A program made the position numbers and the translations under genes. From assembly GCA_026988075.1 (NCBI GenBank), contig JALSLZ010000171.1, positions 1 through 39,660 on the forward strand: DNA of 39,660 nt, in the 5' to 3' direction. Source of the stretch: Flavobacteriaceae bacterium. Lineage in GTDB: Bacteria; Bacteroidota; Bacteroidia; Flavobacteriales; Flavobacteriaceae. Positions 5,254 to 26,370 of the stretch are shown here, one piece after another. The notes below the pieces were generated by a model, which saw nothing but the letters and a program-made list of their open reading frames with translations, was not told where the DNA came from and did not search any database. Each line of letters starts with the position of its first letter. The first letter of the stretch is position 1.

Positions 5254-5316
5254 GATGTTAGATGTTAGATGTTAGATGTTAAATGTTAAATGTTAAATGT
5301 TAAATGTTAAAGTCTA
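5254..5316. repeat. Tandem heptamer array: 4x GATGTTA + 4x AATGTTA + 1 degenerate AAGTCTA
   Basis: Read directly; 9 units of 7 bp without indels, intergenic between holA and the coiled-coil gene. Confidence 0.95.
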
Positions 5317-5361
5317 AAATTACTCTACAAACAACACACTAACAATCAAAATATTAAACAA

Positions 5362-23752: not shown

Positions 23753-24463
23753 TTACCGAATACTAACAACTTTTATATCAATATCTTTAAAAGGCCATTC
23801 GTCTTTATCTGTTTTTTCTAAAATAATTTTATCAATAACATGCATTCCTTTTATTACTTTACCTATAACCGTATGTTCAAAATTTAAATGATGTTGCGGT
23901 TTTTTACTTTGCACAATATAAAATTCAAAAGGTGTTGATAATTTATCAGGGTTGTATTCCCAATCTCTTGCAACAGCTAAAGCACCTCTAAAATGCTTGT
24001 GGTTTTTTCTAAATTCGGGCTTTAATCTATAATTTTTATACTTATTACGAAAATTAATTGTAGTCATTCTGTCTGAGTTTCCAAATTGAGCCACAAAATT
24101 AGGCACTAATCTATGAAAACTGGTTGTGTCAAAATATCCTTTTTTAGCTAAAAAAATAAAGTTTGCACGATGTATTGGTGTGTCTTTATAAAGCTGAAAA
24201 GTAAAATTACCCAAACGTGTTGAAAATTCGACTATAGTTTCTTTATTTATTTTTCCGTAGGCCCTAAAAAAAGCATTTGCGTTATTGTGATTTAAAGTAT
24301 CAGTAACCGTTATATTTTGTTTTTTATACGGTTTCTTTTTTACTTTTAAATTAGTTGATTTTTCTTTTTTTAATTTAGAGATTACCTTTACTTTTTTTTC
24401 ATCATTACATGAATTTAAAAGTAACAGTACTAATAATAGTCTTAAAAAATTTATCATAAACAA
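23753..24463 (-). CDS. Cyclophilin-type peptidyl-prolyl isomerase lipoprotein
   Basis: Lipobox-like LLLLNSCND; FSTRLGNFTFQLYKDTPIHRANFIFLAKKGYFDTTSFHRLVPNFVAQFG; FEHTVIGKVIKGMHVIDKI. Confidence 0.9.
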   Translation of the reverse strand: MFMINFLRLLLVLLLLNSCNDEKKVKVISKLKKEKSTNLKVKKKPYKKQNITVTDTLNHNNANAFFRAYGKINKETIVEFSTRLGNFTFQLYKDTPIHRANFIFLAKKGYFDTTSFHRLVPNFVAQFGNSDRMTTINFRNKYKNYRLKPEFRKNHKHFRGALAVARDWEYNPDKLSTPFEFYIVQSKKPQHHLNFEHTVIGKVIKGMHVIDKIILEKTDKDEWPFKDIDIKVVSIR

Positions 24464-24465
24464 TT

Positions 24466-25008
24466 TTATTTACGAATAATTTCTGCCAACAACTTTTTAG
24501 CTCTTAACAATTTTACTTTAACATTACTCATAGATTCATTTAATTCGGACGAAATTTCTTTATACGTCATTTCTTGAAAATACCTTAATTGTATAATTTC
24601 TTGATAATGTGGCTTTAACTTTTTAATATAAGCCAATAATTTTGCTAAATTTTGTTCTGTTATTATTTTATCTTCAATTGATGGACTTTCATCTTTAATG
24701 TCAAAAAATTTATCATTTCCATCTATTGAAATAATTCCTTTTTTCTGTTTACGCAGTTGATCTATAAAAATATTTTTCGAAATAGTAATCAACCAAGTTT
24801 TAAACGTATAATTTTCATCATAAAGCACCAATTTATCAAAAGCCTTAGCAAATGAACGAATGGTATTATCTTCTGCTTCATCTGGATCTTTAGTCTTTGA
24901 CAACTGAAATAAATAAACATCTTTCCAATACATGTTCAACAAGGTTTTGTAAGCGCCTTGACTTCCGTTTTTAGCTTTTTGTATTGTATTTTTTATATCG
25001 TTAGACAT
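24466..25008 (-). CDS. RNA polymerase sigma-70 family (ECF-type) sigma factor
   Basis: ALCOHOL-free region 2 pattern DAEDNTIRSFAKAFDKLVLYDENYTFKTWLITISKNIFIDQLRKQ (as PDEAEDNTIRSF...) and region 4 LKPHYQEIIQLRYFQEMTYKEISSELNESMSNVKVKLLRAKKLL. Confidence 0.9.
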   Translation of the reverse strand: MSNDIKNTIQKAKNGSQGAYKTLLNMYWKDVYLFQLSKTKDPDEAEDNTIRSFAKAFDKLVLYDENYTFKTWLITISKNIFIDQLRKQKKGIISIDGNDKFFDIKDESPSIEDKIITEQNLAKLLAYIKKLKPHYQEIIQLRYFQEMTYKEISSELNESMSNVKVKLLRAKKLLAEIIRK

Positions 25009-25043
25009 TTACTCTATTATTTAATTTAAATATTGATTTTTTT

Positions 25044-25274
25044 CACTTTTCATTCTACATTTTTCACTCTACATTTTTCATTTATCACTTTTCATTCTAC
25101 ATTTTTCACTCTACATTTTTCATTTATCACTTTTCACTCTACATTTTTCACTTTTCATTTATCACTCTACATTTTTCATTTATCACTTTTCATTTATCAC
25201 TTTTCATTTATCACTTTTCATTTATCACTTTTCATTTTTCATTTTTCATTTTTCATTTATCATTTTTCACTTTT
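25044..25274. repeat. Perfectly phased heptamer array, 33 x 7 bp, five variants (CACTTTT, CATTTAT, CATTTTT, CATTCTA, CACTCTA)
   Basis: Parsed by hand with no indels; every unit fits CA[TC]T[TC][TA][TA]. The first two 42-bp blocks (units 1-6 and 7-12) are identical. Confidence 0.97.
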
Positions 25275-26370
25275 CCCATTCAACAGGTTTTGAAAAAATA
25301 TTTCCCATAAAGATACGCATTTGAATCATAATCAAAAACAATTCCAAAAAAGGCAAATATAAAATTAAGTCTGCTTCTTTTAATTTTTTAGCAGATAAAC
25401 CATAAATAAGGTATTGCAAAACAATTCTAAAAACAAATAATGTAACAACAAAATATACATTTTTAGCTGCAATCATTAAAAACACTGTTAAAAACCAAAA
25501 CAAAAACTGACTTACATAAAACAACCCTAATAATATTTTATGTTTCAATTTATAAGCGTTTGCAGTAGAAACATGTCGCCTTTTTTGATAAATCCACTTT
25601 TTTAAATTCGTATGTGCTTTTGAATACGTAAAACTATTTTCTAAAAAACATATAGCTACATTATTTTTAGCCACTTGATTAATAAATAAATCATCATCGC
25701 CAGATTTAATATATTTATGGCTTTCAAATCCGTTTGCATTTAAAAAAAGTGTTTTTTTATACGCCAAATTTCTACCAACACCCATATAAGCCAAATTAGC
25801 TTTGGCATAAGAAAAATATTGGATTGCCGTTAACAAGGTTTCAAAACGTACTAATTTATTTAACCATGAATTACTTGTTTTTTCATAAGCACCATAACCT
25901 AAAACAATTTCATTTTCTTGAGTAAAATGTGAAGTCATTTCATTAATCCATTGATCAGAATAAACAACGCAATCAGCATCAGTAAATAATAAATATTCAA
26001 ATTTAGCAAGCTTTACACCTTGCGTTATTGCATTTTTTTTATTTCCATTAGATTGCGCATCAGTAAGATTAACAATTTTTATATTTGAATGCTTTTCTGC
26101 AAAAAAACGCATTATTTTTAATGTATCATCTGTTGAATGATCATTAACTAAAATAATTTCGAAATTATCATGTTTTTGACTAATTATTGACGGCAGACTT
26201 TCAGCTAAATTTTCAGCTTCATTTTTTGCACAAACAATAATAGAAATTGGTAATTTAGTTTCTTTGGCTTTCTTATCACTAAAAAAAGCAAACCGACTAA
26301 ACAACAAAAAATAATACAAAACTTGAATAAATACAATTATTAAAAATAGTATTTCAAGTAAAAATAACAT
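25267..26370 (-). CDS. Glycosyltransferase family 2 membrane protein
   Basis: ISIIVCAKNEAENLAESLPSIISQ, EIILVNDHSTDDTLKIM, LLFTDADCVVYSDQWI, KWIYQKRRH, and C-terminal TM segments. Confidence 0.9.
   Translation of the reverse strand: MLFLLEILFLIIVFIQVLYYFLLFSRFAFFSDKKAKETKLPISIIVCAKNEAENLAESLPSIISQKHDNFEIILVNDHSTDDTLKIMRFFAEKHSNIKIVNLTDAQSNGNKKNAITQGVKLAKFEYLLFTDADCVVYSDQWINEMTSHFTQENEIVLGYGAYEKTSNSWLNKLVRFETLLTAIQYFSYAKANLAYMGVGRNLAYKKTLFLNANGFESHKYIKSGDDDLFINQVAKNNVAICFLENSFTYSKAHTNLKKWIYQKRRHVSTANAYKLKHKILLGLFYVSQFLFWFLTVFLMIAAKNVYFVVTLFVFRIVLQYLIYGLSAKKLKEADLILYLPFLELFLIMIQMRIFMGNIFSKPVEWEK

Follow-up and report, generated by a model that had tools for sequence, protein, structure and literature searches.

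The window analysed here is a stretch of 39,660 nt from a Flavobacteriaceae bacterium, in which a heptamer array of 33 units (25044 to 25274, read on the minus strand) lies between two genes of the same direction. Its upstream neighbour is a glycosyltransferase (GT) family 2 gene (25267 to 26370, minus strand), assigned from Pfam PF00535 (E=5.6e-26) and from its relatives. The downstream neighbour is an ECF-type sigma factor gene (24466 to 25008, minus strand; Pfam PF08281 and PF04542), orthologues of which are present in 49 of 60 relatives, and the next co-directional gene (23753 to 24463, minus strand; Pfam PF00160, E=4e-36) encodes a cyclophilin-type PPIase. The array had earlier been placed 36 nt from the start of the sigma factor gene, and this placement is refined here, the space between array and ATG being an A/T-rich leader of 35 nt (25009 to 25043, minus strand). 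The GT gene does not end before the array: the ORF list and comparison of the junction place its TGA stop codon (25267 to 25269, minus strand) in the upstream edge of the array, within the first two minus-strand units. The encoded protein ends in EWEK, compared with HW or HWK as is usual in the family, and the GT and sigma factor genes are 258 nt apart.

Direct reading and unit counting resolve the 231 bp of the array into 33 heptamers with zero indels, drawn from five words: CATTTTT (ten units), CACTTTT (nine), CATTTAT (eight), CACTCTA (four) and CATTCTA (two). On the mRNA strand these read as NNNARTG (AAAAATG, AAAAGTG, ATAAATG, TAGAGTG and TAGAATG), with G present and C absent. The earlier note had described this composition, the strict heptamer phase and two levels of higher-order repeat, and our recount reproduces them: units 1-6 are identical to units 7-12, forming 42-bp blocks, and units 20-27 alternate between CATTTAT and CACTTTT, forming 14-bp repeats. 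Tandem Repeats Finder, proposed as a check, agrees with a call over 25039 to 25275 (score 277). Runs of three CAYTYWW units number 33 in the window, 31 of them inside the array, against an expectation of 0 from 100 shuffles of the window. In 0.69 Mb of the same genome the 42-bp block occurs only in this array, which indicates that the higher-order structure arose locally, and the local 42-bp and 14-bp duplications support the slippage-type expansion that had been suggested.

The genome is a draft of 1.95 Mb in 221 contigs, about 70% complete, and 33 units is the count as assembled. The fragmentation of the draft, including a contig (C44) that ends within a perfect 18-copy CACTTTT array (L095:4159-4285), could point to a false expansion or collapse during assembly. 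However, the array in the window has unique sequence on both flanks within a 39.7-kb contig, its mixed words follow a non-repeating order, and similar arrays are present in complete single-contig relatives (for example G365, G335 and G331); an assembly artefact is therefore extremely unlikely. What the end of contig C44 does suggest is that such repeats break the assembly and that the number of arrays in this genome is probably underestimated.

Folding of the array gives no sign of RNA structure (z=+1.26), and the Bacteroidetes-type -7 motif TANNTTTG is absent from the minus strand of the array and the 35-nt leader. A search of the window for known RNA families returned one tRNA as the sole match. 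From the orientation of the genes, and with no promoter recognised in the gap, the array would lie within a GT-sigma transcription unit and is probably co-transcribed as unstructured, C-free RNA. The plus strand across the array is open for 86 codons (25033 to 25293), encoding FHFSLFT-like repeats, and carries no signs of a gene; antisense ORFs of this kind across heptamer arrays may get mis-annotated as proteins.

Comparison with relatives indicates that the array is new in this lineage. Among 29 relatives with this locus read, 22 have the GT gene directly upstream of the sigma factor gene, with a gap of at most 30 nt and mostly with overlap, and the array is absent from the junction in all 22. 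In the genus mates G001, G002 and G003 the junction reads TGGTAATTG, the stop codon touching the start codon. Comparison of this intergenic region between related genomes, which had been recommended beforehand, leaves our genome alone with the array. Two further arrays behave in the same way. The gap between pheA (prephenate dehydratase) and the aminotransferase gene measures -23, 2, 61, 61 and 80 nt in genus mates, in each case with no array, and the last ~12 residues or so of PheA in our genome are array-encoded and missing from the genus mates; an array at lysS (lysine-tRNA ligase) is likewise absent from them. All three arrays tested (GT-sigma, pheA and lysS) are thus specific to our genome among those compared. 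The pheA array (L104:3266-3545, contig C204) occupies the entire gap and is flush with both genes.

The main local effect of the repeat is that a gene pair conserved in the family as overlapping or abutting is now separated by 258 nt, and it is probable that translation of the sigma factor has been uncoupled from termination on the GT message, that is, freed from dependence on ribosomes finishing GT. For the sigma factor gene, this means that a conserved overlapping pair has been pulled apart by a repeat.

The array is one of about 20 period-7 arrays in this genome. The pattern of four consecutive CAYTYWW units gives 184 overlapping matches, corresponding to ~14 separate arrays, and a scan of 0.69 Mb finds further period-7 arrays, one of which also lies in the window. 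Seventeen of the arrays range from 8 to 47 units, and AAAAGTG, AAAAATG and ATAAATG are mixed together in most of them. Their neighbours are unrelated to one another (lysS, pheA, mpl, a DnaJ-like gene, dnaK and parA). The second array in the window (5255 to 5318) consists of ~8 copies of ATGTTAA/ATGTTAG in the gap between a DNA polymerase III delta subunit gene and a gene for a 212-aa protein; its RTG strand is antisense to both neighbours, with the gene ends 44-60 nt away.

Since these words are found again in ~20 arrays with unrelated neighbours, the array is not a device of the sigma factor operon, and the role specific to the sigma factor/PPIase operon proposed in the earlier note is not supported. 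The idea of a spacer survives in part, as a spacer within a co-directional gene pair, and loses its specificity to that operon. It might still be argued that unit number sets the GT-sigma spacing or RNA stability and varies between cells (phase variation), because the array is long, perfectly periodic and adjoins a sigma factor gene, and such arrays usually vary in unit number. However, no relative with the same gene pair has an array, the same type of array adjoins housekeeping genes, and 7-nt changes would fall outside coding frames in a region with no promoter motif whose spacing could shift. Phase-variable repeats act on a surface gene by altering its reading frame or the spacing of its promoter; here the array lies between coding frames, lacks a -7 motif and neighbours GT, sigma factor and PPIase genes, and phase variation has been argued against for a comparable class (Rehm et al. 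2015, PMC4692102). Length tuning is accordingly quite improbable, and the array is best read as one of a genome-wide repeat class rather than as a special sigma factor switch.

Across the Flavobacteriaceae the class is patchy. At least one array of four CAYTYWW units is present in 45 of 400 sampled genomes, representing 39 of 237 genera; the reversed pattern also catches other heptamer arrays and was not used as a null. Period 7 dominates where no motif was used for selection: in 0.4 Mb of the relative G365 it accounts for 12 of 13 short-period arrays with at least four copies. The words are specific to genomes, such as TTGAGTG in G007, TTGAATG in G209 and TTAAGTG in G282, and two arrays of one genome have a common consensus word in a fraction of 0.30 of pairs, compared with 0.11 ± 0.03 after shuffling. 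Such sharing points to spread or homogenisation within a genome, or to a bias common to its arrays, and away from slippage at each site independently. Some arrays at different sites are adjoined by conserved sequence, of ~30 nt in G007 (L088, L089 and L092) and of ~120 nt in G209 (L233, L235 and L232, in G209/G382), which makes the array, in some genomes, one component of a longer repeat element found at dispersed sites. A long intergenic region of G331 (L204:1046-2765) holds five consecutive heptamer arrays, all with different words.

The placement of the arrays relative to genes follows a strong rule. With flanking genes recorded for 104 CAYT-class arrays, as longest-ORF calls rather than curated annotation, the array starts within 8 nt of the upstream gene's stop codon in 44 of 66 cases when the RTG strand is sense to that gene and in 1 of 36 when the other strand is sense. 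Among CAYT arrays with both flanks known, 43 are stop-adjacent, where uniform placement in the gap would give 11 ± 2. One strand of the search motif itself contains stop codons, and the survey was therefore extended to every period-7 array of these loci, whatever its motif. For motifs outside the selection, a stop codon is at most 8 nt away in 19 of 44 arrays with G on the sense strand and in 1 of 26 with C there (Fisher p=3e-4); for the arrays as a whole the counts are 55 of 119 and 3 of 69, respectively. In samples taken without any choice of motif (0.4 Mb of G365, loci chosen by the S23 gene family and random contigs of our genome), stop codons lying 5' of the G strand are within 30 nt in 18 of 22 cases, as against 2 of 13 for those lying 3' of it (p=2e-4). 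Flavobacteriaceae heptamer arrays thus tend to begin right after a stop codon with the G-bearing strand forward. A weaker excess exists at start codons, since neighbouring starts lying 5' of the G strand are within 8 nt in 9 of 56 cases and those lying 3' of it in 4 of 112. In our genome the strand rule is broken most clearly by a 43-copy array (L105:9156-9456, contig C205), which is antisense to both co-directional neighbours with gene ends 29-50 nt away.

PF05635 genes, which encode the four-helix-bundle protein of 23S rRNA intervening sequences, often lie within arrays of period 7 or 8. A period-7 array lies within 160 nt of 13 of 30 PF05635 genes and of 9 of 321 ordinary genes of our genome (p=2e-10), a comparison that mixes genomes and gives an approximate effect size. 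Heptamer or octamer arrays were found at loci L201, L203, L206, L211, L212, L216, L218, L246, L258, L265, L282 and L305-L334, and at L212, L216, L309, L314, L320 and L333 similar arrays stand on both sides, as if the gene had moved into such repeats or together with them.

Several explanations of the position and strand rule were considered. The ATG or GTG every 7 nt might be taken to indicate selection for start codons, but this was rejected, as RTG is equally well preserved in the interior units of arrays antisense to genes (94% of 292) and of sense arrays (89% of 539). A stop codon acting as the seed of the array fails as a general rule, as stop codons outside the array stand in a roughly uniform register to the unit. 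Our genome shows no GC skew in background 3' regions, and a skewed background after stop codons was therefore rejected as the cause of the strand bias. A giant hairpin between a G-type array and a complementary C-type array downstream is not supported, reverse-complement words accompanying 11 of 44 stop-adjacent arrays and 6-8 in composition controls.

A TGA every 7 nt places stop codons in all three frames within 21 nt, and the array could thus act as a fail-safe against readthrough or frameshifted ribosomes. The mRNA strand of the array in the window has TGA or TAG/TAA in each frame, and among the stop-adjacent G-sense arrays that are not of the CAYT class, 15 of 22 carry stops on the sense strand. 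However, the unit is free of stops in the other 7 of 22 (for example TGTTGGG and TGGTTTT), none of 7 arrays with a stop (TGA) on the C-rich strand abuts a stop codon on that strand, and 33 copies far exceed what a fail-safe needs. We hold such a function to be very unlikely. Although the numbers are small, the stop-free units and the 0 of 7 indicate that the strand composition of an array is a better guide to its position than stop codons are. As general explanations, selection for start codons and stops in several frames are both disfavoured. The antisense strand bears C, lacks G and has a pyrimidine-C dinucleotide in every 7-nt unit, a composition expected of a Rho utilisation site, and a putative loading site that blocks antisense transcription into the gene end would produce the bias at stop codons. 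However, C-type arrays also lie just before start codons (within 8 nt in 5 of 9 motif-unselected cases on the 5' side), where they would terminate a gene's own leader, and a role in Rho loading is highly unlikely.

The best rival for the origin of the array is transcription-coupled expansion, in which RNA left free of ribosomes after the stop codon, bearing G and lacking C, would re-anneal to the C-bearing template as an R-loop and promote slippage, the array being the scar. It would account for the location after stop codons and the strand bias, for the rarity of arrays inside ORFs (7 of 104), for the random register of stops outside the array and for the degenerate period-7 signal that persists on the 3' side only. 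Two convergent gene pairs of G365 (L337:3682-3925 and L343:15683-15850), each with one G-sense array directly behind each stop codon, agree with it. However, it does not directly predict the arrays on the start side, and a single G per unit makes a weak R-loop former; on balance we consider it unlikely. A polar process that extends the repeat toward the 5' end of the G strand until it reaches the edge of an ORF would fit the start-side data too.

The explanation that we favour, with moderate confidence, is that a heptamer repeat grew by slippage at the GT stop codon in this lineage and is tolerated rather than selected as a regulator. The genome-wide family, the dominance of period 7, the absence from relatives, the position rule, the local duplications and the fold z-score of +1.26 all count for it. 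Against it, the strong strand bias at stop codons is not explained by pure neutrality alone, and the sharing of words within genomes speaks against independent slippage of each array. The strand preference in convergent gaps is 10 to 1 for the CAYT class but 7 to 6, and thus not clear, for other motifs. A wider and more tentative proposal is that bacterial heptamer arrays are gene-end elements under one sequence-independent rule. They would arise or persist at stop codons, the C-poor strand being the mRNA strand, through a process coupled to transcription or translation that distant phyla share, and quadruplexes, start codons and stop codons would not be the cause; we regard this as possible, though rather doubtful.

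Among mid-length tandem repeats of bacteria, heptamer arrays are the most common. Cyanobacterial short tandemly repeated repetitive sequences also prefer heptanucleotides, and slippage has been proposed for them. Long simple sequence repeats have likewise been described as preferring heptanucleotides, with slippage proposed (Mrazek 2007, as cited in PMC4679880). The array in the window resembles them in its 7-nt tandem unit, longer than chance, and in its proposed origin by slippage, and our genome has many such arrays scattered genome-wide and mainly intergenic; as far as the citing papers describe them, those surveys did not report a rule of stop codon and strand. As for protein binding, a paper on an RbpB-type RRM protein of B. 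theta describes a preference for AU-rich RNA and gives no heptamer match.

TAACTGA direct repeats have been described in Beggiatoaceae, cyanobacteria and some Bacteroidetes (MacGregor 2015, PMC4679880), together with intergenic heptamer arrays of mixed words in the Flavobacteriaceae Gramella, Aequorivita and Elizabethkingia. The TAACTGA arrays are missing at the same junction in relatives and carry stops in all frames of one strand, and in these features, as in being intergenic heptamers, our array is like them. However, its words are different, and the Beggiatoaceae arrays stand just upstream of start codons, whereas those studied here begin at stop codons (35 nt to the start in the window, and a class median of ~107 nt to a sense start).

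The one detailed study, which tied the strand of heptamer arrays and their position at stop codons to G-quadruplexes, concerned the G-rich repeats GGGAATC and GGGGA(T/C)T of Xanthomonas and Nostoc (Rehm et al. 2015, PMC4692102). These repeats lie near a stop codon where they are on the sense strand and upstream of ORFs where they are antisense, and the 5' neighbour is the closer one whichever way it points. Like them, the arrays studied here are tandem heptamers, genome-wide, intergenic and variable in unit number from one array to another, and they obey the same rule, its weaker start-side part included; in the window the stop codon falls inside the array itself. The host group differs, the words vary between Flavobacteriaceae genomes, and array lengths of the kind seen here contrast with the four copies preferred in Xanthomonas and Nostoc. 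The Xanthomonas and Nostoc units contain G-tracts that form quadruplexes, whereas the units here have isolated G only, which makes a quadruplex impossible. That the same rule holds in AT-rich arrays of this kind removes the quadruplex explanation for them and makes the reason for their siting testable. The array in the window is thus best read as a lineage-specific case of the known heptamer repeats, from which it differs in following the strand and stop codon rule with no potential for quadruplex formation.
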